Origin: Betaproteobacteria bacterium
Lineage (GTDB): Bacteria; Pseudomonadota; Gammaproteobacteria; Burkholderiales; SG8-41
Direction of reading: 5' to 3'
Length of the DNA: 52,054 bases
Assembly (NCBI GenBank): GCA_025363435.1
Contig: JANYDY010000029.1
Coordinates: 1 to 52,054, forward strand
Shown here: positions 4,324-39,733 of the stretch, one piece after another
Layout of the letters: every line of letters begins with the position of its first letter
Position numbering within the stretch: the stretch's first letter is position 1
The notes under the pieces: generated by a model
Seen by the model: the letters and a program-made list of their open reading frames with translations, nothing else
Databases searched by the model: none
Told to the model about the DNA's origin: nothing
Program-made: the position numbers and the translations under genes

Positions 4324-5274
4324 TTAGTCTTCGCGAATTCCCGCGTCTTTAATGACTTTGTCCCAGCGGTTGATGTCAGCACGCATGGAAGCGGCAAATT
4401 CCTCCGCGGTGCCGCCGAGTGTTTCAACACCGGCGCTGAAAAAACGTTCTTTGACGTCGGCGCGGCCGAGCACGCGCAGGGTTTCCTGATTCAGGCGCGC
4501 CACAATAGCCGGTGGCGTTTTTGCCGGCGCAAAAAATCCGTAAAACGAAACCGACTCGTAGCCGGACAGCCCGGCCGAGGCCACGGTCGGCAATCCCGGC
4601 GCCAGTTCGGTCGGTCGCGCGCTGGTCACGGCGAGCGCTTTCAAGCGCCCTGATTTGACATGCAGCATGGCAGCGCCGGCGGCCGGGAACATCACTTGCA
4701 CCTGACCGGCCATCAGCGCCGTGAGCCCGGGGCCGGTGCCCTTGAACGGCACGCGCACGATTTCGACACGCGCCATCGATTTGAACAATTCGGCGCCCAG
4801 ATGCATCGCCGAGCCCGCAGCGCCGGTTGCATAGTTGAGCTCGCCCGGTCGCGCACGCGCCAGCGCCGTCAGCTCTTTGACCGAGTTCACCGGCAATGCC
4901 GGATGCACGACGAGTATGTTCGGCGCCATCGCCACCAGTATGATGGGCGAAAAATCCCTGACCGGGTCCCACACCACCTCTTTCATCAACGGCAGGATCC
5001 ACAGCGCGCTGCTGTATAAAAGCAGCGTGTGGCCATCGGCTGCGGATTTTGAAACCGCCTGCGCAGCGAGCGCACCGCTGCCGCCGCCTTTGGCTTCAAC
5101 AATCACCTGTTGCGCAAAGGCGGCCGTGAGCCCCTGCGCAATCAGGCGCGCGGCGAGATCATTGCCGCCACCGGGCTCTGCGGTGATGATGCGGATCGGT
5201 TTGGACGGATAGTTTTGTGCCGCGGCATTGAACGCAATCGCCACACACATCAACACAATCGCAAAGGCTCGCAT
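4324..5274 (-). CDS. Bug-family receptor at the 3' end of the hyu cluster
   Basis: 316 residues with a signal peptide (MRAFAIVLMCVAIAFNAAAQ) followed by NYPSKPIRIITAEPGGGND, the standard mature N-terminus. Later motifs are SAADGHTLLLYSS, NILVVHPALPV and RVPFKGTGPGL. The start chosen is the methionine at 5274, 7 bases after the hyuA stop; a longer version starting at 5346 would overlap hyuA by 65 bases and hide the signal peptide. This is the second Bug gene of the same transcription unit (the other is at 10045-11034). Tight spacing implies co-transcription and a shared substrate class with the HyuAB enzyme. Confidence 0.92.
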   Translation of the reverse strand: MRAFAIVLMCVAIAFNAAAQNYPSKPIRIITAEPGGGNDLAARLIAQGLTAAFAQQVIVEAKGGGSGALAAQAVSKSAADGHTLLLYSSALWILPLMKEVVWDPVRDFSPIILVAMAPNILVVHPALPVNSVKELTALARARPGELNYATGAAGSAMHLGAELFKSMARVEIVRVPFKGTGPGLTALMAGQVQVMFPAAGAAMLHVKSGRLKALAVTSARPTELAPGLPTVASAGLSGYESVSFYGFFAPAKTPPAIVARLNQETLRVLGRADVKERFFSAGVETLGGTAEEFAASMRADINRWDKVIKDAGIRED

Positions 5275-5281
5275 CACCGGC

Positions 5282-7390
5282 TCAAAGATCGACCACCAGA
5301 TTGCTGTAGGCATCGACAGACCATTTTGCATCCGGTGCAATGACAACGGTCGTTTCGCGTTCTTCGATCAGCGCAGGGCCGGCGCCGCTTTCACCCGGCG
5401 TCAGGCCATAGCGGCTGTAAACGGCGCAGTCGACATGGCCATGCTGCGGGCCGAAATAAACGCGGCGGCTGGCCTTGCGGGCCGTTGCATCAATTTTGCC
5501 GGGCAGCTGCGGCGACAGATTGAACGGCGGCTTTTTGCCGGCAGCGCGCACGCGCCAGGTGATGGCTTCCGTTGCGGCGATGCTGAGTGCGCGGCCGAAC
5601 TGGCGCGCGTACGCGGTCTCGAAGCGTGCCGTCACCTGCTGGAGCGCCGCGGCGCGATCGCCGCCGGTGAAATCGATGCCGCTGACCGGCACTTCGATTT
5701 CATAGCCCTGCCCGCTGTAACGAATATCGACGCTGCGCTCAATCGTGATTTCATCGATTCGCGCGCCCGCTGCTTCGAGCATGGCGTTTGCGCGCGCTTC
5801 CATTTCGGCATACATCGCGCCGACACGCGACCAGTCAAGCACATCGAGCGGGCCGACGTAACTGCGCGACAGGTTGATCACCGGTGGCGCGATGCACAAG
5901 CCGACGGCCGATGTAGCGCCAGCGCCGAGCGGATACACAATGCGGCGTATGCCGAGAATTTTCGCCACCTGCCACGCGTGTATCGGCGCCGCGCCGCCAA
6001 AAGTTATCAGCGTGAACGTGCGAATGTCGAGCGCGCGCTCGGCGGCATAACGTTTGCCCGCCGCCACCATCGCCTCATTAACAACAGCAAAAATGCCCCA
6101 CGCCGCTTCCACGGTGGTTTTGGCAAGCGGTACGCCGACGCTTTCATCGATAGCATTTTTCGCTGCAGCGGCATCCAGCGTCATGTCACCGCCGAGAAAA
6201 CCCGCCGGGTCGACAAAGCCGAGCACGAGGTCGGCGTCGGTTACGGTCGGTTTTGTGCCGCCCCGACCGTACGCCGCCGGCCCGGGTGCGGCGCCGGCGC
6301 TATGCGGACCGACCTTCAGCAACCCAAGCGTGTCGATATGCGCGATGCTGCCGCCGCCGGCGCCGATCTCGATCAATTCGATGACCGGGATCAACACCGG
6401 CAGACCACTGCCACGACGGAAACGCATGGCGCGCGCGGTTTCAAATATGTTGGCGTGGAAGGGCTGGCCGTTTTCAATGCAGCACAATTTTGCCGTCGTG
6501 CCGCCCATGTCGAAGGCAAGCGCGTGCTCAATGCCCAGCAACTCGGCGTAACGCGCTGCGGCAAGCGCACCGGCGGCCGGCCCCGACTCGATCAACTGGA
6601 TCGGGATCTGCTGCGCGATATCGACGCTGGAGATACCGCCGTTGGAGAGCATGACGTGCACATGCTTGCGATAGCCGCGCGCGGCTAAAACGGCATCGAG
6701 TTGCGAAAGATAATTTTTAACGCCGGGCCGCACGTAGGCGTTGAGCACGGTAGTTGATGCACGTTCGTATTCGCGCAGCTCGGGTGCGACTTCACTGGAG
6801 ATCGTGCAGTCGATCTGCGGAAATTCGCGCGCCGCCAGATCGCGTATCACCTGCTCGTGCGCGGCGTTGCGGTAGGCGTGCAGCAGACAAACGGCAACCG
6901 AAGCCACGCCGGCGGCCGCAAGTTCAGTCAACGCGCGGCGCGCCGAATCGAGATCGATCGTCTGCAATACCTCGCCGTTCCACGCCATGCGTTCGCTGAC
7001 TTCGCGTGTGAGGCTGCGCGGCACGATGGGATCGGGACGCTCGAAACGGTAGTCGTAATGATCGTAGCGCGATTCGCGACCCATCACCAGCACGTCGCGA
7101 AAGCCTTCGGTCATGATCAAGCCGGTAACGCAGCCTTTGCGCTCGATGATAGCGTTGGTGACGAGGGTCGTCGCGTGCGAAATTCTGGCGAGATCGGCAT
7201 ACGCCACGCCGGCGCGCTTGCACAATTCGCCGACACCCTCGAGAAAGGCCCGGCCCGGGTCGTCAGGCGTAGTCAGTTGTTTGCCGATATAGAGTTCGCC
7301 GCTCGCCTGCTTGAGCAAGGCGAAATCTGTAAACGTGCCGCCGATGTCGACACCGAGAACGATGTCGCCGGTATTTGTGTTGGTACTCAT
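5282..7390 (-). CDS. hyuA: Hydantoinase/oxoprolinase family protein, subunit A (HyuA)
   Basis: A 702-residue cytoplasmic enzyme, normal length for the HyuA family (N-methylhydantoinase A, 5-oxoprolinase, acetone carboxylase beta relatives). The N-terminal nucleotide-binding signature VLGVDIGGTFTDF is at residues 11-23; SHATTLVTNAIIERKG and a second phosphate motif, ALAFDMGGTTAKLC near residue 290, follow. These enzymes couple ATP hydrolysis to opening a cyclic amide, or to carboxylation, together with subunit B. Its ATG overlaps the hyuB stop by four bases, so the two are translationally coupled. The exact ring substrate (hydantoin, oxoproline, or another lactam/imide) is not determinable from sequence. 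Confidence 0.92.
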   Translation of the reverse strand: MSTNTNTGDIVLGVDIGGTFTDFALLKQASGELYIGKQLTTPDDPGRAFLEGVGELCKRAGVAYADLARISHATTLVTNAIIERKGCVTGLIMTEGFRDVLVMGRESRYDHYDYRFERPDPIVPRSLTREVSERMAWNGEVLQTIDLDSARRALTELAAAGVASVAVCLLHAYRNAAHEQVIRDLAAREFPQIDCTISSEVAPELREYERASTTVLNAYVRPGVKNYLSQLDAVLAARGYRKHVHVMLSNGGISSVDIAQQIPIQLIESGPAAGALAAARYAELLGIEHALAFDMGGTTAKLCCIENGQPFHANIFETARAMRFRRGSGLPVLIPVIELIEIGAGGGSIAHIDTLGLLKVGPHSAGAAPGPAAYGRGGTKPTVTDADLVLGFVDPAGFLGGDMTLDAAAAKNAIDESVGVPLAKTTVEAAWGIFAVVNEAMVAAGKRYAAERALDIRTFTLITFGGAAPIHAWQVAKILGIRRIVYPLGAGATSAVGLCIAPPVINLSRSYVGPLDVLDWSRVGAMYAEMEARANAMLEAAGARIDEITIERSVDIRYSGQGYEIEVPVSGIDFTGGDRAAALQQVTARFETAYARQFGRALSIAATEAITWRVRAAGKKPPFNLSPQLPGKIDATARKASRRVYFGPQHGHVDCAVYSRYGLTPGESGAGPALIEERETTVVIAPDAKWSVDAYSNLVVDL

Positions 7391-9036
7391 TGCGATTCCG
7401 CGCCATAGATCTTGCGCGCCGCCTGTTCCGTGACGAGGCCTTCGACGAGATCTTTCTTGAGCTTGGCCGGACTGCGTTGTTGCGGCGGCCCGAAACCGCC
7501 GCCACCCGGCGAATGAATTTTCAGGAACTGGCCGGGACCAAGCTCACCGCGCCCCTTGGGCGGAAACGCTTTGACGCCGTCGAGCCAGATGCCGGCCGTA
7601 TCGGCATCGCCGCCACCCGACAAGCCGCGCGGCGGATGCGTGACGCGATCCATACGGCTCGAGGCAGTGATGACTTCACCGGTGCTGTTTTCGACCACCA
7701 GTTCGATGCCGAGACCGCCGCGAAATTCACCGGCGCCGCCCGAATCCGCGCGCAGCGCTTTTCTTTTGATCGTCAGCGGCACCACACTCTCGATCACCTC
7801 GACCGGCGGCGAACCCGAATTCGACGGATAGGGCGTGCACGAATAACCGTCCTTGCCGTCGCAGGCGCCCATGCCGCCGCTGCTAATCATCATGAACGAG
7901 AATGGGCGGCCGTCGTGGCCATGCGCACCGGCGAACACCGTACGATTGGTCGGCGAACCGCAGGCCGCCATCACGCGTTCCGGGATCGCTTTGGACATCG
8001 CGTCCATGGTCAGCGTCGGAATGTAGTGTGCGGTCTGGTTGCGCGCGAACACCGGCGCCGGGAACTGCGCATTCAGTATGCACCCAGGCGGCGCAAAGAC
8101 GTTGACCGGCCGCGTAATGCCTTCGTTGTATGGCGTATGCGGATCAAGGATGCATTTCAGCGCGTAGATAAACGCTGAATGCGTGAAGTTGTAGACAACG
8201 TTGATACCGCCGGGACTGACTTGCGGCGAAGTGCCGGCGCAGTCGATTTCGATTTCGCTGCCGCTAACCTTGATCGTGCATTGCAGAGTGACCGGGCTTT
8301 TGAAGCCGTCGGCCTCCACCGTGCTGGAGTACGTGCCGTCGGGAATTTTTTCGATGGCGCGGCGAAATACCGCTTCGGTGCGCGCGTTAAGCGCGCGCGA
8401 CAACGGTCGCCAGTCGTCGATGCCGGTTTCATCCATCAGCCTGACGAGTTCGGACGCGCTGGTACGGCAGGATGCGATCAGCGCGTTAAGATCGCCGATG
8501 ACCTGCTCGGAGACGCGCACATTTTTCTCGAGTATCGCGAACAACATGGCGTCGGGTTCGCCGGCGCGGAACAGCTTCACCGGTGGGAAACAGATGCCCT
8601 CTTCATAGACCTGGCGCGCGTCGGGCACGGTTGAGCCGCCGACATCGGCGACGTGCGAGCAGGCGCCGGCAAAACCGACCAGCCTGCCGGCGCGGAAGAT
8701 CGGCATGGTGATATAAAAATCCGGCAGATGGCCGGAGCCGAACCACGGGTCGTTGGTAAACAGCACGTCGCCCGGCTGCAGAGTTTGCGGCGGGATGCGT
8801 TCCAGTATGGCGCGTATGGTGCGCGGCAGGATGATGCCCATGCGCGGCGTGCCGCGCGTGGTGTAACCGATGCCGGTACCGTCACTATCGCAGAGCGCAC
8901 AGCCGAAATCGTTGGATTCACGCGCGACCGTCGAGAACGCCGCGCGCACCAGTGTGTGCGCAGCTTCGTCAACAATAGAAATGCAACGCTCCCACAAAAT
9001 CTCGAGCGTGACCGGATCGTCAAGCGATATTTGCAT
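7387..9036 (-). CDS. hyuB: Hydantoinase/oxoprolinase family protein, subunit B (HyuB)
   Basis: 549 residues, beginning MQISLDDPVTLEILWERC, the usual HyuB N-terminus. Family landmarks are FTNDPWFGSGHLPDF, GACSHVADVGG, the PGGINVVYNFTHSAF region, and the glycine-rich end (PPRGLSGGGDAD, HSPGGGGFGPP). It forms the catalytic complex with HyuA, whose start codon it overlaps by 4 bases. An in-frame extension upstream to 9393 runs antisense through the cyclodeaminase-like gene and lacks family similarity, so the start at 9036 is preferred; 20 bases separate it from that gene. Confidence 0.92.
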   Translation of the reverse strand: MQISLDDPVTLEILWERCISIVDEAAHTLVRAAFSTVARESNDFGCALCDSDGTGIGYTTRGTPRMGIILPRTIRAILERIPPQTLQPGDVLFTNDPWFGSGHLPDFYITMPIFRAGRLVGFAGACSHVADVGGSTVPDARQVYEEGICFPPVKLFRAGEPDAMLFAILEKNVRVSEQVIGDLNALIASCRTSASELVRLMDETGIDDWRPLSRALNARTEAVFRRAIEKIPDGTYSSTVEADGFKSPVTLQCTIKVSGSEIEIDCAGTSPQVSPGGINVVYNFTHSAFIYALKCILDPHTPYNEGITRPVNVFAPPGCILNAQFPAPVFARNQTAHYIPTLTMDAMSKAIPERVMAACGSPTNRTVFAGAHGHDGRPFSFMMISSGGMGACDGKDGYSCTPYPSNSGSPPVEVIESVVPLTIKRKALRADSGGAGEFRGGLGIELVVENSTGEVITASSRMDRVTHPPRGLSGGGDADTAGIWLDGVKAFPPKGRGELGPGQFLKIHSPGGGGFGPPQQRSPAKLKKDLVEGLVTEQAARKIYGAESQ

Positions 9037-9056
9037 AACCCGGATTATGCCGCTAA

Positions 9057-10025
9057 TCAGGCGGCAGGCAGTTCGATCGGTAGTTCCATGCCGATTTTTT
9101 TCTTCAGCGCACGCTGATAAACAAGATTGGCCAGGGCGATGTCCTGGCTGGCCATGCCCTGGGTGATGATGAGGACGCGCTGATTTTCGTTGCTGCGGCC
9201 CGGATGTTTGCCGCTGACGACTTCGGCAACCGTGGCATCGATCCAGCCCGGCGCTTCGGCGCCGAACAGTTCCGTCAATTCTTTTTGCAGCTGCGCGCGG
9301 CTGTCGACCACAAAGAGATCGGACTTCTCGGCGAGGTCGCGCCCCGGTTCGGCGCTGTCCAGAGTAGCCACCACGGTACCCGGCGCGATCCACGATTCTT
9401 CGAGCATGGCACGCGCGCTATTGGTCGCCGTCAACACCAGATCGGCACCGCGCACCGCGGCTTCAATGCTGTCGGCCGCTTTGGCATTGACCCCGTAATT
9501 TGCTTTTGCTTTGGCAGCGAGTGCGGCACGCGTTTCCGGGCGGCGCGAGGCGATGCGCACTTCTTTCAGCTTGAACAGCCGCGTAAAATATTCGAGCGCG
9601 GTGGTCGCCAGGCGCCCGGCGCCGACCAGCGCCAGCGTGCCGGCGTCCTTGCGTGCAAGGCGGTGCGCCGCCATCACAATGGAGGCAACCGTGCGCTGCG
9701 CATAGGTCCAGGTTTCGTCGACCAGCGCCAGCGGGCGCGAGCTCGCAACATCGACCAGCATGATGAAACGCGTGGCGTCCTGCGAGGTTTCATCGGTGGC
9801 ATTGTGCGAAACAAAACGAAAACCGCCGACCGAAGCCTCATCGAGTATGCAGGCCTTGAGGTGGTAGTGATTCTCGAAACGGTCGCGCATATTCATGTTC
9901 GGCGGCACCGGCCAGCGCACCTGGCCGGCGGCATCCTGCGCGACGACGCGCGCGATTTCGGCGAGCACATCGTCCGGCGTCAACAGCGCATGGCATTGTC
10001 TGGCGGTGAGGTAAATCAGCGACAT
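9057..10025 (-). CDS. Ornithine cyclodeaminase / mu-crystallin family protein
   Basis: 322 residues in the OCD/mu-crystallin fold: N-terminal dimerisation part, then a Rossmann segment ALVGAGRLATTALEYFTR (residues ~130-150), RIASRRPE and DLVLTATNSA, ending with GMASQDIALANLVYQRA. Members include ornithine cyclodeaminase, alanine dehydrogenase, ketimine reductases and delta-1-pyrroline-2-carboxylate reductase; all act on amino or imino acids with NAD(P)(H). In this operon (19 bases after a Bug gene, 20 bases before hyuB) it probably processes a cyclic imine or amino acid intermediate. That role is inferred; the substrate is not known. Confidence 0.88.
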   Translation of the reverse strand: MSLIYLTARQCHALLTPDDVLAEIARVVAQDAAGQVRWPVPPNMNMRDRFENHYHLKACILDEASVGGFRFVSHNATDETSQDATRFIMLVDVASSRPLALVDETWTYAQRTVASIVMAAHRLARKDAGTLALVGAGRLATTALEYFTRLFKLKEVRIASRRPETRAALAAKAKANYGVNAKAADSIEAAVRGADLVLTATNSARAMLEESWIAPGTVVATLDSAEPGRDLAEKSDLFVVDSRAQLQKELTELFGAEAPGWIDATVAEVVSGKHPGRSNENQRVLIITQGMASQDIALANLVYQRALKKKIGMELPIELPAA

Positions 10026-10044
10026 GTAATTCTTTCCTGCGTAA

Positions 10045-11034
10045 TCAAACGTCGGGTTTGATGCCGGCTTTGATGATAATCGGGCCGATCACATCGCTCT
10101 CAGTCTTCAGCGTGGCGGTAAACTGTTCGGGCGTATCGCCAACGATATCGAAACCGATTTGCGCAAGACGCTGCTGCACTTCCGGGTTCTTCAACGCAGT
10201 GACAATCGCGGCGTGCAGTTTAGCGATAATTTCACGCGGCGTCCCGGGTGGCGCAACGACGCCGTAACGACCTTCCATCGGATGTATTTTGATGCCGACT
10301 TCGTTCAGCGTCGGCAGCTCGGGCGCCGCCGTCGGGCGTTTGCTACCGATGCTCGCCAGTAGACGCAGGCGGCCGTTTTTCGCCTGCGGCAATGCCGGAC
10401 TGAGATCGGCGAACATGAGGTCGATTTCACCCGAGACCACGGCGGTCAGCGCCGGCCCGGTGCCTTTGTATGGCACGTGAACCATGCTGACGCCGGTCAC
10501 CGCCGAGAACAGCTCGGCCGCAACGTGTGAACTCGCACCGCTGCCTGATGAACCGTAACTGAGCAGATTTTTTTTCGACAGCGCGAGTTTGATCAGCTCG
10601 CGCACGTTCTTCGCCGGCACGCCTGGATTGACTGCAATCACGTAGGCGGTAACCGCAAGTTGCGACACCGGCAGCAGATCCCTCTGCACGTTGTAGCCGA
10701 TTTTCGGATAGAGATGCGGCGCCACCACAAGATTGCCGGAACTGCCGAGCCCCAACGTATAGCCGTCAGGCGCCGCCTTCGCCACCAGTTCCATGCCGAT
10801 GGTGCCGCCGGCGCCGCCGCGGTTTTCAATCACTACTGCCTGCCCCAACGCTTCGCTCAATTTGGGCGCGATCACACGCCCGCAAATATCCGCCGGGCCG
10901 CCCGGCGCAAAACCGATGAACACGCGGATCGCTTTGCTCGGATAGTTCGCCGTGCTCTGTGCGACGGCACCGCCGTTTACAAGCAGCGCAGCCATCGATA
11001 CGACCGCCAACGAAATTTGACCAATATGTTTCAT
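10045..11034 (-). CDS. Bug-family receptor between the tautomerase and OCD genes
   Basis: 329 residues: signal peptide MKHIGQISLAVVSMAALLV ending around GGAVAQ, mature start NYPSKAIRVFIGFAPGGPAD, then GGAGGTIGMELVAKAAPDGYTL and HVPYKGTGPAL. The start at 11034 is chosen because a GGAG motif lies about 8 bases upstream; an alternative ATG at 11046 adds four residues. It precedes the OCD-like gene by 19 bases, so it is part of the cluster. A 131-base gap separates it from the upstream tautomerase-VOC gene and holds a 10-bp palindrome, so an internal promoter is possible. Confidence 0.92.
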   Translation of the reverse strand: MKHIGQISLAVVSMAALLVNGGAVAQSTANYPSKAIRVFIGFAPGGPADICGRVIAPKLSEALGQAVVIENRGGAGGTIGMELVAKAAPDGYTLGLGSSGNLVVAPHLYPKIGYNVQRDLLPVSQLAVTAYVIAVNPGVPAKNVRELIKLALSKKNLLSYGSSGSGASSHVAAELFSAVTGVSMVHVPYKGTGPALTAVVSGEIDLMFADLSPALPQAKNGRLRLLASIGSKRPTAAPELPTLNEVGIKIHPMEGRYGVVAPPGTPREIIAKLHAAIVTALKNPEVQQRLAQIGFDIVGDTPEQFTATLKTESDVIGPIIIKAGIKPDV

Positions 11035-11052
11035 GATGTGCTCCATAAATTT

Positions 11053-11062
11053 TGACCGGTCA
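11053..11062. promoter_or_regulatory. Candidate operator palindrome TGACCGGTCA
   Basis: A perfect 10-bp palindrome 18 bases upstream of the Bug start at 11034, inside the longest gap in the downstream half of the cluster. The position suits a regulator site, but a 10-bp palindrome can also arise by chance in GC-rich DNA and no matching promoter hexamers were convincing. Confidence 0.25.
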
Positions 11063-11165
11063 TGTCACTAAGCAAGGATCATGACAGCCCGCGTGCGCGG
11101 CAAACCCGGGCGCTCAATGCAACCTCGCACCATGCCGGCCCGCAATGGCCCTGAAGCAGTGCACG

Positions 11166-11738
11166 CTAACGCGGCTCTTCGTAGAGCTCGATTTTATTGC
11201 CGTCCGGATCGGCGACGTATATCGTGCGGCCGTAAATGCCGTCGTGCAGCTCCTCAAAAAATTGTACGCCGGCTTGTTTCAGCCGCGCGGCCAACGCATC
11301 AACGCCACTGACACGAAATGCCATGTGATCGATTTGCGGTGCGCCGCCGGGCCCGCCGGTGGTCAGCGCGAGGCCCTGCTTGAACGGCACGAAAGGGCGG
11401 CCGTCGGTCAGGGGTTTGGCATTGCGCCCGGTGAAGCCGAGCAGATCGGCATAGAATTTTTTCGAAGCATCGAGATCGCGTACCTGCAGCAACATATGTG
11501 CGAAGCCGTATATTTTCGGCTCTTTCGGTGCTGCAGGCTTGCCGGGTTCAGGCTCGTTGTCGATACCGAGTTTCCCATCGCGGCCCCAGCTGTCTTTCGG
11601 CACGTCGTGAATAATCACGTGCAGATGTTCGCCGCCGCAATCGGCATGCTGCATCATCGCTTCGGTAATCGCCGCGACCAGCCGGCGTTTTTGATTGACG
11701 CTGCGTCCCGGCCATAAATCAACTGTCACTACCGGCAT
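11166..11738 (-). CDS. Tautomerase (4-OT-like) fused to a VOC (glyoxalase/dioxygenase-like) domain
   Basis: 190 residues in two parts. Residues 2-55 align without gaps to 4-oxalocrotonate tautomerase: Pro directly after the initiator Met (the catalytic base once Met is removed), Arg at mature position 11, and the GRS and VII patterns. The family Arg39 is His here and Phe50 is Trp. After a Pro/Lys/Glu-rich linker (61-75), residues 76-188 form a VOC domain with likely metal ligands His81, His138 and Glu184, and ending DPDGNKIELYE. VOC proteins do isomerisations, glyoxalase or extradiol reactions. A bifunctional enzyme handling a keto/enol intermediate of the cluster is an inference. It ends 131 bases before the Bug gene. 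Confidence 0.85.
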   Translation of the reverse strand: MPVVTVDLWPGRSVNQKRRLVAAITEAMMQHADCGGEHLHVIIHDVPKDSWGRDGKLGIDNEPEPGKPAAPKEPKIYGFAHMLLQVRDLDASKKFYADLLGFTGRNAKPLTDGRPFVPFKQGLALTTGGPGGAPQIDHMAFRVSGVDALAARLKQAGVQFFEELHDGIYGRTIYVADPDGNKIELYEEPR

Positions 11739-11765
11739 AAGCTGCCTCCGTTTTCAAATACCCTG

Positions 11766-12857
11766 TTACGCAGATTTTCTGACGCGTGCCAGCAAACCCT
11801 TCAGATCGAGGCCCGTGATACCCATCGCCGCGGCGCCGCGCCCGCCATCGCGATAACTTTTGCCGACAACGATTTCGGCAAGCCGGAACAGATTTTCCGC
11901 CGCCGGCACAGCAACACCGGCGATTTTCGCAAAGGTCATGAACGGCAACAGGCCGTGGCCGAAATCTTCCTGATAATAACGGTGATTAAGCGAACCCGGC
12001 GCCTTGATGCGACTGTTGGCGCTGCCGGCCGCAATTGCCGCGGCAAAATCATCGCTGTCGCTGACCGCCGCTTCCACCGTGCCGATGGCCTTCATTTCTT
12101 CAATCAGGTTTGGCAGCGTGTGGCCAAAAGCGCGCGCCATCGCGCGCCGCTCGTCGTCGAGCGCGCGCATCACGCGCGCTACACCCGGCGTCATGCCTTG
12201 CGCGTAAAAAGTATAGTTGCCGGCAGTCGCCTCGACCCAGGCTGCGCCGAGTATCGCGCCCGGCGGATGCAGCACCATGTTGACATTGCACAAGCCGGAG
12301 AACAGCACGTCGGCGACCGCTTTGGCGCAGGGAAAAAGCTGCATCGCGATTTCAACCGCGCGTTCACTGCCGGGCAGCGACGCAACGCGCACCTGCTTCG
12401 CACGCCCGCTGATCGTGACGCGCTGTGGCTGATTTTTGCGCGCGACGTAAGTAAGCGTGGAAAACTCCGCCACCGGCGGCACATCGGCACGCTGCTTTTT
12501 GAAGGCAGTTTCGAATTCGAGCGCACCACCGGTGTGGCCCGGATTGAGCACGACGGGCACATCGGCTTTGGCACCGGCCTGCGCGAGTGCAAACGCCATC
12601 ACGGCGTGAGAGATGGTCGGCAGCGTACAAACCAGCGCCTCGCAACCATTGATGGCCGCGCGCAGATCGGCGGTAATCAGCAGCGGTTTGGCGAGGCCTT
12701 CACCGAATACACCATCGAATTGAACGCCGCCCAAGCGTGCAAACGGATCGAGCGTAGCCTGGGAACGGTTCCACAGATGAACTTCGTGGCCGGCCTGTGT
12801 GAGTTCGACCACGGCGGCCGCACCGCCCGCACCTGCGCCGAGTATGGCAACGCGCAT
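11766..12857 (-). CDS. NAD/NADP octopine/nopaline dehydrogenase family protein
   Basis: 363 residues. The N-terminal Rossmann motif is VAILGAGAGGAAAVVEL (residues 3-19), followed by HEVHLWNRS. The C-terminal half has the opine-dehydrogenase landmark NMVLHPPGAILGAAW plus DDERRAMARAFGH. Opine dehydrogenases reductively condense an amino acid with a 2-oxo acid, or run in reverse to oxidise N-(carboxyalkyl)amino acids. The reverse, catabolic direction would fit this uptake cluster, but that is inference. It is one base from the M24 gene upstream and 27 bases from the tautomerase-VOC gene downstream. Confidence 0.85.
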   Translation of the reverse strand: MRVAILGAGAGGAAAVVELTQAGHEVHLWNRSQATLDPFARLGGVQFDGVFGEGLAKPLLITADLRAAINGCEALVCTLPTISHAVMAFALAQAGAKADVPVVLNPGHTGGALEFETAFKKQRADVPPVAEFSTLTYVARKNQPQRVTISGRAKQVRVASLPGSERAVEIAMQLFPCAKAVADVLFSGLCNVNMVLHPPGAILGAAWVEATAGNYTFYAQGMTPGVARVMRALDDERRAMARAFGHTLPNLIEEMKAIGTVEAAVSDSDDFAAAIAAGSANSRIKAPGSLNHRYYQEDFGHGLLPFMTFAKIAGVAVPAAENLFRLAEIVVGKSYRDGGRGAAAMGITGLDLKGLLARVRKSA

Positions 12858-12858
12858 A

Positions 12859-13992
12859 TCAGCGCACGACCAGTAATTTATCAGTGTTGGCGTAATCGGA
12901 CAGCAGCTCGCAACCCGTCCCGGTCACCAGCATCATGTCCTTGTTCTGCATGCCGTAGCCATGACCGGTTTGATAGCACAAGGGCTCCACACCCAGCACC
13001 ATGCCGGCCTCAAGTTGCGCGTCACCGCGCTTGCCAATTTCCGGCGTTTTACCAATGTAAGGATCTTCGTGCAGATGCAGGCCGATACCGTGACCGACGA
13101 AGGAAATCGGCGGCAAATTCAATTCCATTAATTTGCGCAAAAAGGCTGCGTATATCGCGCGGCAGCTCGCCCCCGGCTTAATCATGTCCATCAACAGATA
13201 TTTGCACTCGACAAGATTCTGCCAGATTTTTTCCGCATGCGCAGGCGCGCGCTGCACGACGGCGGTGCGGCAAACGCCGGCCTGGTAGCCGTTGATCACG
13301 GAAAATATTTCGACACGACAGACGTCTTCGATTTGCAGCTTGCGCTCGCTCGGCCCGACATTGGGCAACTGGCTGCGCTCGCCGGTGGCGACGATCATCA
13401 ACTTGAAATGCTCGGCGCCCAGCGTGTAGATATTGCGCGTCATTTGCGCAGCGATGTCCATTTCCGTGTCGCCGGTTTTCACCGCCGCCAGCGCGTCGGT
13501 GATCGACTGATCGGCGATACGCGACAACCGCCGCAGCAGATCGATTTCATCGCGCGTCTTGATCTGTCGCAGGCGCGCCAGCAACGCTTCGTTGCCGCTA
13601 AAGGTTGCTTTTGGCAATTCGCGCGTCAACCGCGCCAGATCACCGGCCGGCAGATAGTCCATCTCGATACCGATACGCGCTGCTTCGAGGCCAAGCTCTT
13701 GCAACTGAATGGCCAGCACCGCCATCGCGCTGTCGGTGAATTCGGCCCAGATGCGCGACGGCGTATCGGGTTCGCGTCGCTTGATGGTAGACGCCTCCAT
13801 ATCGACACCGAAAATCGCCGTTCTGCCGTCGGTGGTGACGATCACCATCGCATGGCGGTGGCGGATCAGCGGCTGCGACGGCACGACAAAACCGGTCAGA
13901 TAAGCAAAGTTCTCCGGCGAACAGGAGATCATGGCATCGAGACCCGCCGCCTGCATGGCTTTGACCTGACGGTTTACAATTTCCTGTCGCAT
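12859..13992 (-). CDS. M24 (pita-bread) family protein with degenerate metal site, creatinase-like
   Basis: 377 residues with creatinase/prolidase N-terminal domain (1-140) and M24 C-terminal domain. The start MRQEIVNRQ at 13992 lies 4 bases after the upstream gene's stop; an in-frame extension to 14082 would overlap that gene. In metallo-M24 peptidases five residues bind two metals. Here the first Asp is Glu228, the second is Gly239, His301 (GHGIGLHLHED) and Glu336 are kept, and the last Glu is Lys351 (NKDMMLVT). Loss of this many ligands argues against a dimetal Xaa-Pro peptidase and for a metal-independent hydrolase like creatinase or ectoine hydrolase, cleaving a C-N bond. The substrate is unknown. 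Confidence 0.88.
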   Translation of the reverse strand: MRQEIVNRQVKAMQAAGLDAMISCSPENFAYLTGFVVPSQPLIRHRHAMVIVTTDGRTAIFGVDMEASTIKRREPDTPSRIWAEFTDSAMAVLAIQLQELGLEAARIGIEMDYLPAGDLARLTRELPKATFSGNEALLARLRQIKTRDEIDLLRRLSRIADQSITDALAAVKTGDTEMDIAAQMTRNIYTLGAEHFKLMIVATGERSQLPNVGPSERKLQIEDVCRVEIFSVINGYQAGVCRTAVVQRAPAHAEKIWQNLVECKYLLMDMIKPGASCRAIYAAFLRKLMELNLPPISFVGHGIGLHLHEDPYIGKTPEIGKRGDAQLEAGMVLGVEPLCYQTGHGYGMQNKDMMLVTGTGCELLSDYANTDKLLVVR

Positions 13993-13996
13993 TTTT

Positions 13997-15157
13997 TTAT
14001 GCAGTCGTACGGTATTTTTCGATTTTGGCTTCGTCAATCGCGATACCCATCCCCGCCGCCATCGGCACTTCAATCGCACCATCGACGAATTTCATCGGCA
14101 CTGCGATCAGATCGTCTTTGTAATAAATACCGGCAATGCGGCCGTGCTGATGTTCGGCCGGCGTCGACACCGGGATCACGCAGGAAAGCGTTGCCGCCGG
14201 CGCCGCAGCGGCCAGCTGCACATTAGCGAGATTGCCGATACCGGTTTCAATCGAACCGTTGACGTTGCAGACGATGCCGGCAGCGCGGCACACTGCAGCA
14301 ACTTCCATCGCGCGATACAACCCGCCGGGTTTGGTGGTGTAAATCGAAATGATATCGATGGCATGCTGTTCGGCGATTTGTATAGCGTCGTGCGCATTCC
14401 ACGCCGACTCGTCGGCCATCACCGGCGTGTCGAGCGCGCGCGCGACTTCGGCAATGCGCTCGATGCCCATGCACGGTTGTTCGGCGTATTTGAGGCGCTG
14501 CTTTTCCATTTCGCGCAAGATCACTACCGCTTCGCCGGGTGTTTTATAACCTTCATTGGCATCGACGCAGATGTCGATGTCGGGGCCGGCGGCGTTGCGC
14601 ACTGCGCGCACCATCTCGATGTCGCGTTTGGCATCGACGCCGATCTTGACTTTGATGGTCTTGATGCCTTCCTTGACGACCTGGGCGACCTCCTTTTCCG
14701 CCTCGGCAATCGCAATCAAGCCGATCGAGTGCGTGACCGGCACCCGCGTGCGCACACACCCGCCGAGCAGCACGTGCACCGGCACGTTGAGCGTTTTGCC
14801 GGCCAGATCATAGGCGGCGAATTCGACCGCGGCCTTCGCGTACGGATAACCCCTGATCGCGGCATCCATGCGCGCATGCAGTTCGACGATATTGGTCGCA
14901 TCAACGCCTTTGACTGCCGGCCCGAGATAACGCGCGATGACGAGCTCGACGATCGCCGCCGATTCACCGAAGTAACGGCCGAATTCACCGCCCCAGTCTT
15001 TCAGCGCCGCCGCTTCGCCCCAGCCGATGCGGCCGTCTTCGTCGGTCATCCTGGTCAGGATGTAACGGCCAATCGGCTCGGTGAGGCCGGTCCATTTATG
15101 TTCGCGCCGCGTCGGCAGTTGCACGACGATGGTTTCAAGAGAAGCAATGCGGCTCAC
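13997..15157 (-). CDS. Enolase superfamily enzyme, muconate lactonizing enzyme (MLE) subgroup
   Basis: 386 residues, GTG start. The C-terminal barrel shows the MLE/dipeptide-epimerase catalytic set: a KxK motif (IKVKIG), Mg ligands in CVDANEG, AEQP and MADES, and the opposite lysine in YTTKPGG. Such enzymes abstract an alpha proton from a carboxylate and give cycloisomerisation, racemisation, N-succinyl/dipeptide epimerisation or o-succinylbenzoate synthesis. Next to an M24 hydrolase and an opine-dehydrogenase-like gene, epimerisation of an N-substituted amino acid is one possible role, inferred only. The 89 bases upstream, after the coxL-type gene, are the first sizeable gap in the run and might contain a secondary promoter. 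Confidence 0.9.
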   Translation of the reverse strand: MSRIASLETIVVQLPTRREHKWTGLTEPIGRYILTRMTDEDGRIGWGEAAALKDWGGEFGRYFGESAAIVELVIARYLGPAVKGVDATNIVELHARMDAAIRGYPYAKAAVEFAAYDLAGKTLNVPVHVLLGGCVRTRVPVTHSIGLIAIAEAEKEVAQVVKEGIKTIKVKIGVDAKRDIEMVRAVRNAAGPDIDICVDANEGYKTPGEAVVILREMEKQRLKYAEQPCMGIERIAEVARALDTPVMADESAWNAHDAIQIAEQHAIDIISIYTTKPGGLYRAMEVAAVCRAAGIVCNVNGSIETGIGNLANVQLAAAAPAATLSCVIPVSTPAEHQHGRIAGIYYKDDLIAVPMKFVDGAIEVPMAAGMGIAIDEAKIEKYRTTA

Positions 15158-15246
15158 GGTGTACTCGTGATAAAGGTGAAATAAATAGTGGATTACTGCA
15201 AGAAAATTGCTGCCTGCAGTTTATCGGTGATGCAGAGGCGGCGCAA

Positions 15247-17544
15247 TCATGCGCGCTTCGCCGCGCGCGCATTTTCAATCAACTGCCAGACCCGCGCCTG
15301 CGACAGCGGCAACGCATTGGTCGCCACAGCGAGGGAACTCAGCGCCGATGCGACGGCGTTGGCAACGACGCCGCCGACCGGAATGATGCCGCCCTCACCC
15401 GCGCCTTTGACGCCGAGCGGATTGAGCGGCGACGGATACTGTTCAAGCGCAATTGCGCGGATGCGCGGAAAATCGACCGCGCAGGGAATCAAATAGGCTG
15501 CAAGCGAGCCGGTCAGCAACTGGCCTTCTTCGTCGTAGACCATGCCTTCGAGCAGCGTGCCGCCCAGACCCTGCACGATGGCGCCAACCGTCTGCCCGTG
15601 CAGCGTATTCGGATTGAGGATGCGGCCGACATCCTCGACGGCGACGTAATCGAGTATTTCGACCTGGCCGGTGCGCGGATCAACGCTGACGTGCGCAGCG
15701 TGTGTGCCATAGCTATAGGTGCGCTTCACATTGTGGAAGGTGCCGGCGGCGGCAAAACCGCCGACGGACAATTCGCCCAGCGTCAGCCGGCGCCTGCCCG
15801 CGGTAACGGCGCGCAGGCCGTCGACAATGGCGACCTCCTGCGGCACGCAACTGAATCGCGCTACCGCTGCATCTCGTATCGCCTGTTTAAGATTTTCCGC
15901 AGCCACCAGTATCGCCGAGCCGCCCATCACCGAGGCGCGCGAGCCGAACGAACCGAAGCCTTCGTGGATGCCGGTGGTCGAGCCGTGATGCACGGCGGCG
16001 ATATGCTCAATGGGAATTTCGAGCGCATCAGCGGCGATTTGCGCGAACACCGTTTCGAGGCCCTGGCCGACCGCAGAGGCGCCGACATAAACCGTTACCA
16101 TGCCCTGCGCATCGAGCAGCAACCGCGCGTTTTCACGCGGGCCGGCCGAGCCGCCCTCAACGTAACAACCGATGCCGAGACCGTGATAACGGCCATCGAT
16201 CAATTTGCCCTGCAGTGCGGATTTCGTTTTCCAGTCGATCTCGACGAGACAACGCTCAAGCGTGATGCTGTACTCGCCGCTGTCGAATTCACCGCTACCG
16301 CCGTACGGCAGCACCTGCGGCAAGGCATACGGAATTTCCGCCGCGGTGACGAGATTGCGCCGGCGCATTTCCACACGGTCGAGGCCGAGTTCGGCGGCGG
16401 CGATATCGATCAGGCGCTCACGGCAGAAATCGGCTTCGAAACGCCCCGGCGCGCGATAAGTGCCGACCGGCGTTTTATTGCTCACATAAAGCGTGACGTC
16501 GAGTTGCACAGCGGGTATGCGATACGGCCCCGGCAGCATCTGCGCCAGATTGCGCGATGGCGTGACGGCGTTCGGCCGCGCATAAGCGCCGATGTTGGCC
16601 CACGCACTGCCGCGTAAACCGAGGATGGTACCGTCACGGCGGCAGGCGATTTCGAGTTCGCATTCGACTTCGCGCGCATGCGTGGTTGCCATCAGATGTT
16701 CGCGCCGGTCTTCGACCCATTTGACCGGACGGTTGAGCCGGCGCGCGGCGAACGGAATCAGAAAATCTTCAGGGAAAAATTCGCCGCGCGCGCCGAAACC
16801 GCCACCGATGTCGGTTTCGACCGCATCGACCGCGTGTTCGGGCAACTCGAGCATTTTCGCCAGTGCCGCGCGCACAAAAAACGGCACCTTGGCCGCACCC
16901 GACAGCGTCAGGCGATTATTCACGGCATCCCATTCGGCGACGAGGCCGCGCGTTTCCAGCGGAATCGCCGCATGCCGGTGCACCTGAAAGGTTTCGCGTC
17001 GCACATAGCCGGCGTCTTTGAAAGCCTGTTCGATATCGCCGCGCACCGCGCTTAACCCCGCTACGCGATTGCTGGCGCAGGCTTCGAACAGCAGTGCCGC
17101 GCCGGCGGCGAGACCGGCGCGACCGGTGACCGCGGGCAATGCTTCAATATCAACATCAACCACATTCGCCGCGTCTTCGGCAATTGCCGCCGAATCTGCA
17201 ATCACCAGCGCGACAGGCTCGCCGACATAACGTACTTTGTCGCGCGCAATTACCGGCTGCACCACACGGTCGAGCGAGGGCTGCGATTCGGAACGCACCG
17301 CGATGGTTGGAATAGTGTTGCCGAGATCGGCGGCGGTAATGACGGCACGCACACCGCGCATGGCCAGTGCCGCCGCCGTATCGATTGCGCTGATGCGGCC
17401 ATGCGCAACTGCGCTGCGTACAACTGACGCATACAACATTCCGTCGCGTTGAAGATCGTCGATATACTGACCGCGCCCTCGCAGGAACCTCAGGTCTTCA
17501 ATACGTTCGACGGGATTTCCGATATAGGAATCCCGGCGCGTCAT
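15247..17544 (-). CDS. Xanthine dehydrogenase/CO dehydrogenase family molybdopterin-binding subunit (CoxL-like)
   Basis: 765 residues, the large Mo-cofactor subunit of a three-part molybdenum hydroxylase. Visible family features: N-terminal RIEDLRFLRGRGQYIDD, GGGFGARGEFFPED, the active-site region with TYRAPGRFE, and the C-terminal KGAGEGGIIPVGG, where the Glu is the expected catalytic base. The CO-dehydrogenase-specific Cys loop is absent, so this is not a CO oxidiser but a hydroxylase inserting water-derived oxygen at an electron-poor carbon, often in N-heterocycles or aldehydes. Its start overlaps the Fe-S subunit stop by 4 bases. Confidence 0.92.
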   Translation of the reverse strand: MTRRDSYIGNPVERIEDLRFLRGRGQYIDDLQRDGMLYASVVRSAVAHGRISAIDTAAALAMRGVRAVITAADLGNTIPTIAVRSESQPSLDRVVQPVIARDKVRYVGEPVALVIADSAAIAEDAANVVDVDIEALPAVTGRAGLAAGAALLFEACASNRVAGLSAVRGDIEQAFKDAGYVRRETFQVHRHAAIPLETRGLVAEWDAVNNRLTLSGAAKVPFFVRAALAKMLELPEHAVDAVETDIGGGFGARGEFFPEDFLIPFAARRLNRPVKWVEDRREHLMATTHAREVECELEIACRRDGTILGLRGSAWANIGAYARPNAVTPSRNLAQMLPGPYRIPAVQLDVTLYVSNKTPVGTYRAPGRFEADFCRERLIDIAAAELGLDRVEMRRRNLVTAAEIPYALPQVLPYGGSGEFDSGEYSITLERCLVEIDWKTKSALQGKLIDGRYHGLGIGCYVEGGSAGPRENARLLLDAQGMVTVYVGASAVGQGLETVFAQIAADALEIPIEHIAAVHHGSTTGIHEGFGSFGSRASVMGGSAILVAAENLKQAIRDAAVARFSCVPQEVAIVDGLRAVTAGRRRLTLGELSVGGFAAAGTFHNVKRTYSYGTHAAHVSVDPRTGQVEILDYVAVEDVGRILNPNTLHGQTVGAIVQGLGGTLLEGMVYDEEGQLLTGSLAAYLIPCAVDFPRIRAIALEQYPSPLNPLGVKGAGEGGIIPVGGVVANAVASALSSLAVATNALPLSQARVWQLIENARAAKRA

Positions 17545-18026
17545 GGCGTGCCGCCGCGTCTGCCTGTTTTATACGCGGCGCGTGCTTCGAGCACGGCCTC
17601 GACGATGCCGATGTAACCGGTGCAACGGCAGAGGTTGCCGGAAAGCGCTTCGCGTATGCGCGCCTCGCCGCAATCCGGCTCCACGCTCAACAGCGCGTGC
17701 GCGGTCATCAGCATGCCGGGCGTGCAGAACCCGCATTGCAAGGCGTGATGGCGGCGGAACGAGACCTGCAAAGGCGCCAGCGTGTCGCCATCGGCAAGGC
17801 TTTCGACCGTTTCGATTTTTGCGCCGTCAACCTGCACCGCCAGTATCAGACAGGCGCGCGCCGGCTTGCCATCGACAATCACGGTACAGGCGCCGCACAC
17901 GCCGTGCTCGCAGCCGACATGCGTGCCAGTGAGGCCAAGTTCGTGGCGCAGGCAATCGACCAAGGTCAGGCGCGGCTCGACATCGACCTCGTGCGTTTTA
18001 CCGTTGACATTGAGTTTGGTTTGCAT
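17541..18026 (-). CDS. (2Fe-2S) subunit of molybdenum hydroxylase (CoxS-like)
   Basis: 161 residues, the standard length. The plant-ferredoxin-type cluster motif CEHGVCGAC plus a later Cys (ARAC) binds the first 2Fe-2S centre, and the helical domain motifs CGFCTPGM and GNLCRCTGY bind the second. It passes electrons from the Mo site to FAD in the M subunit. The gene starts 2 bases after the coxM-like stop and overlaps the coxL-like start by 4 bases, giving the canonical M-S-L order. Confidence 0.95.
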   Translation of the reverse strand: MQTKLNVNGKTHEVDVEPRLTLVDCLRHELGLTGTHVGCEHGVCGACTVIVDGKPARACLILAVQVDGAKIETVESLADGDTLAPLQVSFRRHHALQCGFCTPGMLMTAHALLSVEPDCGEARIREALSGNLCRCTGYIGIVEAVLEARAAYKTGRRGGTP

Positions 18027-18028
18027 GG

Positions 18029-18883
18029 CTAGCGCGCCGCCGCACGTTTGAGCGCGCGTTCGGTCAGCGTTTCAACCAGCGCGCGGCGGTATGCGGCGGG
18101 CGCGTCGATATCGCCGGCAGCATCAATCGCGTGCGCTGCGGCCTTGGCGGTTTCAAGTATCGCAGCAGCATCAGCCTTGCGTCCGTTCAAGACGGCTTCG
18201 GCTTCGTTGATACGTTGCAACTCCGCGCTGGCGCCGATGACGCCGATATGTGTGTTGCCGGCGACGCCGTCGGCGAGATCGTAATACAGCGCAATGCCGG
18301 CCAGCGCGAAAGCGCCTTGCTGACGCGCGAATTCCTCAAACGCCCAGCGCCGCTGCGGCGGCCACGGCGGCAGGCGCAATTCGGTGACGAGTTCATCGTG
18401 CGCGAGTGCATTCATCATCGGCCCGACAAAAAAATCTTTTGCCGCAATGCTGCGCGAACCGGCGCGCCCGACCGCAGTGATTTCGGCGTCGCAGGTCAGC
18501 GCGATACCCGGCAATTCGGCCGCGGTGTCGGCATGCGCAAGACTGCCGCCAACGGTGCCGCGGCTGCGGATCGGATAATGCGCGATATACGTAACGGCAT
18601 CGGCGAGCAGCGGATGCGCCGCCGCAAGCCGTTTATCGTTTTCGATATCGCACCAGCGTACTTTGGCGCCGAGGCAGACGCCTTGCGCTGAAATCGTGAT
18701 CGCATCGAGGCCGGGAATACGCCGCAGATCGACCAGCAGCGAGGGCGCGGCCAAACGAAAAGCGAGAATCGGAATCAGACTTTGCCCGCCGGCAATCGGC
18801 AACGCATCGGCGTGCGCAGCCAGCAGTTCTATCGCTTCATTCAGCGTCTGCGGCGCAGCGTAGTTGAAGGCGGGCAGCTTCAA
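18029..18883 (-). CDS. FAD-binding subunit of molybdenum hydroxylase (CoxM-like)
   Basis: 284 residues when read from a TTG start at 18883, giving KLPAFNYAAPQTLNEAIELL at the N-terminus as in most CoxM proteins, with a purine-rich AAGAGA stretch upstream. A longer frame from ATG 18943 adds a basic, non-family N-terminus running through palindromic promoter-like DNA and is less likely. FAD-binding features are PIAGGQSLIPILAFRL and SRGTVGGSLAHADTAAELP. First gene of the minus-strand catabolic run; nested inverted repeats lie just upstream. Confidence 0.88.
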   Translation of the reverse strand: MKLPAFNYAAPQTLNEAIELLAAHADALPIAGGQSLIPILAFRLAAPSLLVDLRRIPGLDAITISAQGVCLGAKVRWCDIENDKRLAAAHPLLADAVTYIAHYPIRSRGTVGGSLAHADTAAELPGIALTCDAEITAVGRAGSRSIAAKDFFVGPMMNALAHDELVTELRLPPWPPQRRWAFEEFARQQGAFALAGIALYYDLADGVAGNTHIGVIGASAELQRINEAEAVLNGRKADAAAILETAKAAAHAIDAAGDIDAPAAYRRALVETLTERALKRAAAR

Positions 18884-19025: not shown

Positions 19026-19101
<76 letters not shown>

Positions 19102-19337: not shown

Positions 19338-21011
<1,674 letters not shown>

Positions 21012-36457: not shown

Positions 36458-36498
36458 GTTTCACCTGCCGTCCGGCCAATTCGCACAGGGAAACGCCA

Positions 36499-37464: not shown

Positions 37465-37490
37465 TGCACAACGGATGCGCGCGTAACGAA

Positions 37491-39472: not shown

Positions 39473-39657
39473 TTTCGTTCCCTGAAAGTAGCAGCGCCTA
39501 AAAGCGACAGATGATATCGCGCCACAGCGGGCGCTGCGAGACTGTCCCGGCGCAAAAACCTGCACGACTTTGGCGGCTGAACGGTGCCGCCGGGCGCTGC
39601 GACAGAATGGCGAGCGCGCACGCAGAAAAAACCTGCGCAACGGCATTCCAGGGAAAT

Positions 39658-39733
<76 letters not shown>

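Follow-up and report, generated by a model that had tools for sequence, protein, structure and literature searches.

A recurrent MLE-M24-ODH gene module in a modular uptake-and-catabolism cluster of a betaproteobacterium

This study concerns a stretch of 52,054 nt from a Betaproteobacteria bacterium (assembly GCA_025363435.1, contig JANYDY010000029.1, C103 in our numbering; hereafter called the window), which belongs to a genome of 2.97 Mb in 118 contigs with a completeness of about 92%. Between positions 4324 and 18883 its minus strand is packed with open reading frames (ORFs), and we found twelve genes there. They make up a co-inherited uptake-and-catabolism cluster, because the gene order recurs across genomes and the pairwise distances between the encoded proteins correlate, and within it an enolase-superfamily enzyme of the MLE subgroup (MLE), a pita-bread protein (M24) and an opine-dehydrogenase-like enzyme (ODH) form a recurrent module. 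The window cluster as a whole is one local assembly of a modular system, since close relatives share the core and vary both the front end and the downstream genes. Every part comes from a known family; the combination is new and modular. An earlier sequence-only reading of this DNA had likewise not recognized the combination as a known pathway, and we found no description of the core or of the combination in open-access papers, a scope which makes this absence weak evidence.

The same reading had placed an uptake and catabolism run at these positions. The run, its order and the family calls were borne out, each of the twelve scoring above its Pfam gathering score, while the gene count of eleven had to be raised to twelve. 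From position 18883 downward the genes are as follows, with the tRNA gene immediately upstream of the run, between it and GroEL (19338-20984), added at the end:

18029..18883, minus strand: M, FAD-binding medium subunit of a molybdenum (Mo) hydroxylase (FAD_binding_5 143 bits, CO_deh_flav_C 56 bits)
17541..18026, minus strand: S, 2Fe-2S small subunit (Fer2_2 99 bits)
15247..17544, minus strand: L, molybdopterin large subunit (MoCoBD_1/2 234/228 bits)
13997..15157, minus strand: MLE, MLE-subgroup enolase-superfamily enzyme (MR_MLE_C 165 bits)
12859..13992, minus strand: M24, pita-bread (creatinase/prolidase-fold) protein (Peptidase_M24 122 bits)
11766..12857, minus strand: ODH, opine-dehydrogenase-like enzyme (Octopine_DH 113 bits)
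11166..11738, minus strand: Taut-VOC, tautomerase-VOC fusion in one protein (Tautomerase 57 bits, Glyoxalase 62 bits)
10045..11034, minus strand: Bug1, TctC-type periplasmic receptor (TctC 251 bits)
9057..10025, minus strand: OCD, ornithine-cyclodeaminase/mu-crystallin family, alanine dehydrogenase/ketimine reductase-like (150 bits)
7387..9036, minus strand: HyuB (Hydantoinase_B 483 bits)
5282..7390, minus strand: HyuA (Hydantoinase_A 259 bits)
4324..5274, minus strand: Bug2, TctC-type receptor (TctC 196 bits)
19026..19101, minus strand: tRNA-Phe(GAA) (ARAGORN)

Recomputed in gene order, the intergenic gaps measure 2, -4, 89, 4, 1, 27, 131, 19, 20, -4 and 7 bases, so that the gaps of 89 and 131 bases given earlier were right. 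The start of M is a TTG at 18883, with an alternative GTG at 18943 possible, and the probable starts of HyuB, M24 and Bug2 differ from those of the longest ORFs. HyuB was taken to start at 9036 and not at 9393, which overlaps OCD (549 aa, compared to 550 aa for the homologue in locus L058); 13992 is the start column common to the aligned M24 proteins, and 5274 for Bug2 follows from the analysis of window ORF starts alone. As had been claimed, the twelve genes include no regulator, TctA or TctB. The run holds TctC-type Bugs only, lacking the TctA/TctB beside TctC of a tripartite tricarboxylate transport system; three TctA genes are present elsewhere in the genome. Promoter-like sites (2, against 4.8 expected) and terminator-like sites (24, against 19.5 expected) showed no excess.

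For the comparison, named genome contigs were scanned with an alignment of seven M24 proteins, which yielded 128 relatives, and the best 80 were kept (L057-L136, 63-93% identical to the window M24). Locus counts refer to these 80 unless stated otherwise and are hence conditioned on the presence of M24; many of the loci are metagenome-assembled genomes (MAGs) and several species names look unreliable, while named strains of Aminobacter, Shinella, Bradyrhizobium, Mesorhizobium and Variovorax are also among the carriers. In 74 of the 80 loci MLE is found on the same strand as M24 and at most 300 bases upstream of it, and in four others (L079, L081, L086, L110) it stands 1.0-3.3 kb upstream; L117 has only a 45% paralogue, downstream of M24, and no MLE was found near M24 in L134. 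In 56 well-flanked loci (≥6 kb before and ≥7 kb after M24) we counted MLE in 56, ODH in 50, a DpsA-like dehydrogenase in 38, the aminohydrolase AHa (5'-deoxyadenosine-deaminase/TRZ-ATZ type) in 34, tautomerase and VOC in 31 each (both together in 30), the hydantoinase/allantoinase-like AHb in 29, an isochorismatase in 18, the Mo large subunit in 15, OCD in 5 and HyuA in 1, the latter being the only HyuA among all 80. AHb always occurred with AHa (29/29) and the isochorismatase always with AHb (18/18). OCD is 84-93% identical in four of its five loci and 28% in L065, and all five also carry a Mo large subunit along with tautomerase, VOC, Bug and ODH; a 28% OCD homologue in L064 fell slightly below the threshold used. 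Pairwise protein distances were correlated for four gene pairs, M24 with MLE (r 0.76, 72 loci), ODH (r 0.85, 51 loci) and DpsA (r 0.86, 40 loci), and ODH with DpsA (r 0.92, 36 loci); none of 999 label permutations reached the observed value in any of the four cases, although the correlations are inflated by common descent. The gene order recurs across genomes and is not due to chance. A neighbourhood comparison of M24, ODH and tautomerase/VOC as the trio to follow, as suggested before, was nearly right, the tightest pair being MLE-M24. A paralogous set with M24' (30-32%), MLE' (45-49%) and ODH' (33-41%) was seen in L042, L043, L070, L117 and L129, sometimes beside the first set.

A search of 399 genomes of the order with ODH gave matches in 29, ten besides the window's own at 58-61% identity, and in none of the 11 other genomes of its family in this sample; M24 had no match at E 1e-30 or better in 368 other genomes of the class sample. 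Among plasmid records, M24 was found at 73-74% in 13 and ODH at 61-62% in 14, all from Aminobacter, Shinella and Phyllobacterium. These plasmid clusters, uncharacterized and represented by pUSP1 of Aminobacter sp. MSH1 (NZ_CP028969), are among the closest known systems: they share with the window M24, ODH, an MLE adjoining M24, tautomerase and VOC, and are annotated as 'enolase C-terminal domain-like - Xaa-Pro peptidase - amidohydrolase - octopine/nopaline dehydrogenase - DpsA - amidohydrolase - tautomerase - isochorismatase'. They differ in that ABC uptake, GntR, RidA, CobW and AHa/AHb/Isochorismatase-VOC replace the window's M-S-L, OCD, HyuAB and Bugs.

Closer to the window, the order MLE-M24-ODH-TautVOC-Bug1-OCD is common to the window, L057-L061 and L063, and M-S-L is visible in five of these six relatives, the L061 contig beginning inside MLE. 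What follows OCD varies. HyuB-HyuA-Bug2 is found there in L058, whereas other genes take this place in L059 (from a genome which we infer to be of the same genus as the window's), L060, L061 and L063, a count of 1/5 that refers to this position and not to the remainder of those genomes; L057, whose contig stops inside OCD, was left out. The expectation that the genes would not be scattered in related genomes therefore held for MLE-M24-ODH and failed for HyuBA-Bug2, which looks like an accessory add-on module because it follows the core in only one of five close relatives and is missing beside it in most. HyuA and HyuB are both full length and in tandem, as in the ATP-dependent HyuAB (hydantoinase/caprolactamase/oxoprolinase) group. 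The closest PDB entry for HyuA is the N-methylhydantoinase 7hk5 (378 bits), and the best NCBIfam matches are caprolactamase CapA and CapB; both remain under the equivalog cut-offs (484 of 1000 and 221 of 1000 bits), and unlike the core they are not a constant part of the cluster.

The front end varies as well. In L062, L064 and L065 the M24 proteins remain 79-86% identical, but the set of accompanying genes is a different one, namely AHa, DpsA, AHb, tautomerase and Isochorismatase-VOC, the isochorismatase of such clusters being ureidoacrylate/biuret hydrolase-like; a front end of AHa, AHb and isochorismatase is typical of N-heterocycles. Within the Aminobacter versions, AHa and AHb are joined by a D-amino acid dehydrogenase and malate synthase G. 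A family of about 227 aa, annotated as 'resolvase' or hypothetical, is conserved in AHa/AHb clusters (L052-L056; Rhizobiales loci, e.g. L090:17741-18430); it has no Pfam match, and its model (predicted local distance difference test, pLDDT, 77.7) gave weak Foldseek hits to PhyH-type oxygenases only (E 2e-4, template modelling (TM) score 0.33). We made no use of it in the argument.

Among the core enzymes M24 is the most unusual. Its ligand positions read E228, G239, H301, E336 and K351 and not D, D, H, E, E, so that three of five metal ligands are changed compared to a canonical M24 of the same genome (L145), and this E-G-H-E-K pattern is invariant in 27 aligned orthologues. The predicted model (pLDDT 92.9) has the pita-bread fold, with Foldseek query TM scores of 0.74-0.85 to prolidases, DoeA and creatinase, prolidase-type entries ranking first. 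Creatinase and ectoine hydrolase DoeA, which we take to be metal-free pita-bread hydrolases, thus share the fold. Glu replaces Asp at the first ligand position of a true DoeA (L147) as well, which differs elsewhere, the automatic alignment being uncertain at H301. The window M24 differs from both in its own ligand pattern and its own family, the members of which are 63-93% identical to it.

In MLE, K169/K171, D199/E226/D249 and K276 are kept in ≥98% of 76 rows including the window; presumably these are the K-x-K motif, the metal ligands and the second Lys common to the whole MLE subgroup. The best NCBIfam match is TIGR02534, muconate cycloisomerase (223 bits, cut-off 335). ODH combines an Octopine_DH domain with H197 and D298, kept in ≥98% of 55 rows, which we take to be the catalytic dyad; its closest PDB entry is 1bg6, N-(1-D-carboxylethyl)-L-norvaline dehydrogenase (148 bits), while that of OCD is 1omo (89 bits). 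M-S-L has the FAD, 2Fe-2S and MoCo subunits of the xanthine oxidase family. L contains the motifs GGFGARGEF, GTYRAPGR and GVKGAGEGG and presumably the active-site Glu, and no active-site Cys motif of what we assume to be the CODH type was seen in it. Five of the 20 rows aligned from 19 loci (L070, L076 twice, L129, L135) have other motifs and belong to other subfamilies. The closest solved proteins are N-heterocycle hydroxylases, 6-hydroxypseudooxynicotine dehydrogenase (7dqx, 469 bits) and quinoline 2-oxidoreductase (1t3q, 411 bits), which are likewise of three subunits; the rest of the nicotine and quinoline pathways, as we understand them, is not in the run.

The tautomerase-VOC protein has Pro directly after the start Met and a tautomerase domain of the 4-oxalocrotonate tautomerase family (NCBIfam); H81, H138 and E184 of the VOC domain stand at what we assume to be metal positions. 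Tautomerase and VOC are both present in 34 loci, as a single ORF in 7 (L057-L061, L063, L100), as a tautomerase followed by an Isochorismatase-VOC fusion with a related VOC domain in 17, as separate neighbours in 9 and 3 kb apart in L122. The VOC domain thus switches its fusion partner. In the most straightforward interpretation, which gene order suggests, tautomerase, VOC and, where it occurs, isochorismatase act at neighbouring steps, and the window fusion arose where the isochorismatase is missing.

A further element was found near the core of six relatives (L106, L118, L119, L120, L121, L126), in which MLE-M24 is followed by a CMD-family gene on the opposite strand (domain Pfam-confirmed in L118 and L119) and then by an alpha/beta hydrolase. 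The latter exceeds the cut-off of the 3-oxoadipate enol-lactonase PcaD (255.85) in all six cases, with 260.4-273.5 bits. Lactone chemistry would fit such a pairing of an enol-lactonase with a cycloisomerase-like enzyme, and a ring-cleavage/lactone route is suggested because MLE best matches muconate cycloisomerase and a PcaD-type gene lies near MLE-M24 in these relatives. In both respects the system resembles the beta-ketoadipate (catechol/protocatechuate) ortho-cleavage pathway. Unlike that pathway, the window's twelve genes include no intradiol dioxygenase or CatC and add M24, ODH and imine enzymes, with MLE below the family cut-off.

Our preferred interpretation, which we hold tentatively, is a mosaic catabolic operon for an N-containing, probably heterocyclic, carboxylic acid, and the best reading of its chemistry is an aerobic route in which ring cleavage/lactonisation is combined with NAD(P)-linked C-N cleavage. 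An N-heterocyclic carboxylate is favoured because of the relatives of the Mo enzyme, the AHa/AHb/isochorismatase front ends, the ligands of Bug proteins and the lactone context, with no one substrate supported above others; the literature on hydroimidazolone catabolism and on ectoine hydrolase/M24 offered nothing usable toward it. Bug proteins can bind pyridine carboxylates, as Bug27 and Bug69 of Bordetella do with quinolinate (PMC11452294). In the proposed route Bug1 (and Bug2) would bind the acid and pass it to a TctAB pair encoded elsewhere, and M-S-L would hydroxylate the carbon adjacent to the ring nitrogen, as suggested by its closest solved relatives. Next, the metal VOC domain of Taut-VOC might open or isomerise the activated ring, its tautomerase ketonising the enol product, and MLE might turn the unsaturated acid into a lactone or lactam by cyclo-isomerisation, or run the reverse elimination. 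M24, as a creatinase-fold protein without the normal metal site, would cut a C-N or ester bond; ODH would then oxidatively remove an N-alkyl amino acid part with NAD(P), and OCD would process the imine or amino acid left. HyuBA could broaden the substrate range by hydrolysing a related lactam or cyclic imide with ATP.

Several observations weigh against this scheme. PcaD is not in the window, and MLE is under the cut-off of every NCBIfam family listed; its best solved match, 2p88, a racemase, bears no more specific title than that of an MR/MLE family protein, so that MLE may have racemase or epimerase chemistry. Single VOC domains are commonly glyoxalase-type enzymes and not dioxygenases. No Mo enzyme was seen within 21 kb in L062 and L064, hence hydroxylation is not universal, and of the 18 loci whose Mo large subunit resembles that of the window (≥44% identical), 6 also have AHa (L065, L069, L071, L072, L074, L077). 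The latter finding rules out M-S-L as a strict alternative to the deaminase AHa. Finally, the gaps of 89 and 131 bases leave room for separate transcripts.

The genomic site was examined as well. The cluster starts 142 bases past the end of the tRNA-Phe gene, counted from the TTG of M. In L058 and L059 the tRNA is upstream too, and there a HipA-family gene separates it from M; these HipA genes (L059:3311-4618, L058:1930-3237) are 99% alike, and the window has no room for one there. Ten stretches around GroEL were obtained from genomes of the family, five of which reach >10 kb past the tRNA; among these the cluster is present in L172 (the genome of L059) and absent from L173, L174, L179 and L180, while L171 and L175-L178 are too short to tell (L177 was not searched). 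The tRNA-Phe site thus looks variable. Adjacency to a tRNA and patchiness are suggestive only as signs of an island; a search of the rest of the window for repeats of ≥12 bases of the tRNA-Phe gave none, and no integrase family was among the window ORFs scanned, so that a genomic island is not proven. In L060, a MAG, a phage terminase small subunit (642-1142; Terminase_4, 42 bits) lies upstream of the cluster.

This location is what speaks for a run of independent genes brought together beside a tRNA gene by chance, since the cluster lies 3' of tRNA-Phe, is patchy and occupies the site in one of the five long-enough stretches (L172). The same order in independent loci across classes and the correlated distances make such a run very improbable; it is disfavoured for the core and would cover HyuBA-Bug2 at most. 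Considerably less improbable, yet doubtful, is a fixed pathway of twelve genes in which ring hydroxylation by the Mo enzyme is followed by ATP-dependent ring opening by HyuAB, with M24, ODH and OCD completing the degradation. The affinities of HyuA to N-methylhydantoinase (378 bits) and of HyuA/HyuB to CapA/CapB agree with such a ring opener, as does L047, where distant relatives of M24 (23%), ODH (29%), HyuA (47%) and HyuB (40%) stand together with an MLE-family enzyme and Bugs. In four of five close relatives, however, HyuBA-Bug2 is not beside the core, and with HyuA in 1 of 80 loci the earlier proposal of HyuAB as the ring opener of a fixed pathway was not upheld.

A slightly better case, though we still judge it unlikely, can be made for opines or glycation products, both N-(carboxyalkyl) amino acids, as the compounds degraded; ODH would be the key oxidative C-N cleaver, a hydantoinase/ureidohydrolase or deaminase would act on imidazolone-type parts, and glyoxylate or pyruvate would be the product. 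Such a route would agree with N-(1-D-carboxylethyl)-L-norvaline dehydrogenase as the nearest relative of ODH and with the D-amino acid dehydrogenase, malate synthase G, AHa and AHb of the Aminobacter clusters, but leaves MLE, tautomerase, PcaD and the Mo enzyme unexplained; malate synthase G occurs in only 8 of 80 loci, and the top-listed open-access papers on hydroimidazolone catabolism contained no such bacterial pathway. We give hardly any credence to an ectoine- or creatinine-type pathway, with M24 as ectoine hydrolase/creatinase, OCD as EutC and HyuAB as N-methylhydantoinase. The three families are indeed shared and the M24 model resembles DoeA and creatinase as well as prolidases; but M24 scores 83-84 bits against the ectoine hydrolase DoeA/EutD family TIGR02993 (cut-off 613; a true member in the order scores 755), OCD scores 94 bits against EutC (cut-off 472), the M24 ligand pattern is unlike that of true DoeA, and no deacetylase, threonine-dehydratase-like partner or carbamoyl-sarcosine amidase is among the twelve genes. 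The ODH family also includes metallophore synthases, in line with opine metallophore biosynthesis by a reductively acting ODH. This we consider the least credible of all, as the twelve genes include no nicotianamine-synthase-like gene or exporter, and hydrolases, Mo hydroxylase and Bug receptors indicate uptake and breakdown.

Some relatives associate ODH with coenzyme F420. In L075, and likewise in L034 and L039, two ODH loci from a further family within the order, the gene after ODH encodes a Mer-like luciferase-family protein, and TctC, TctB and TctA come next (TctA/TctB Pfam-confirmed in L075 and L039). The Mer-like protein is nearest methylene-H4MPT reductase Mer (149 bits in L075 and 144 in L034; cut-off 276), and a gene of ≥100 bits occurs in 10 of the 80 loci; it accompanies the paralogous trio in L043, L070, L117 and L129. 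F420 biosynthesis genes near ODH, each above its cut-off, are CofGH (1139 bits), NpdG and CofE of L034 and CofD and CofC of L039, and an ODH-like gene, a Mer-like LLM protein and F420 biosynthesis genes occur together in L034, L039, L075 and L117. A Rieske oxygenase alpha subunit was noted in 8 of 9 ODH loci of one genus (L033-L039 and L041, not L040). CofGH is found in 28 of 49 M24-carrier genomes (26 over the cut-off), compared to 19 (17 over the cut-off) in a background of 300 genomes from the window's order, which is unsuited to alphaproteobacterial carriers; the 49 were chosen by us from the 80 loci so as to include all 10 Mer-like loci, with L089 left out. It is present in 9 of 10 genomes with a Mer-like gene (not L123) and in 19 of 39 others.

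The window genome itself has CofGH (1122.9 bits, cut-off 1018) with CofD, CofE and NpdG homologues alongside, located next to Bug genes (G000:C19, L140:8754-13513). It shows no good match to the Mer-like protein (30 bits), and L059, which has the cluster and is of the same genus, shows no match to CofGH; F420 as part of the window's own cluster is thus not supported. In the window's family CofGH occurs in 5 of 9 genomes, yet the 11 other members sampled lack ODH. The association of F420 with the carriers may be explained by shared ancestry. According to a 2021 review, no F420-dependent enzymes had been experimentally investigated in bacteria outside Actinobacteria (PMC8498797).

Further genes of the window lie outside the run. 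Directly downstream of Bug2, a TPR protein with a glycosyltransferase family 41 (OGT-like) domain (2336-4240) adjoins Bug2 in L058 too. Near a tRNA-Ala, another Bug (plus strand) and a DUF1932 dehydrogenase with a second MR/MLE enzyme (minus strand) form a separate small catabolic-looking group (36454-39685), after which comes a dihydroxy-acid-dehydratase-family gene (41482-43155). A sensor of 1001 aa with Cache, HAMP, GAF and HD-GYP-type HD domains is located at 33452-36457.

Taken together, the analysis defines a recurrent gene module with precise, testable parts, present in named strains too. It also offers an M24 family without the normal metal site, a fusion clue joining tautomerase, VOC and isochorismatase, and a lead on F420 in Proteobacteria. 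In a more far-reaching reading, which we think rather unlikely in its entirety, MLE-M24-ODH would be the core of an undescribed and widely transferred pathway of alpha- and betaproteobacteria (and of two Chloroflexi MAGs), an 'aza' beta-ketoadipate-like route for N-heterocyclic carboxylates that employs a metal-independent pita-bread hydrolase and swappable front ends (Mo hydroxylase, deaminase/hydantoinase/ureidohydrolase, perhaps Rieske oxygenase), with one branch using the Mer-like F420 enzyme and carrying the F420 biosynthesis genes. If this were true, F420 would gain a catabolic role in Betaproteobacteria.

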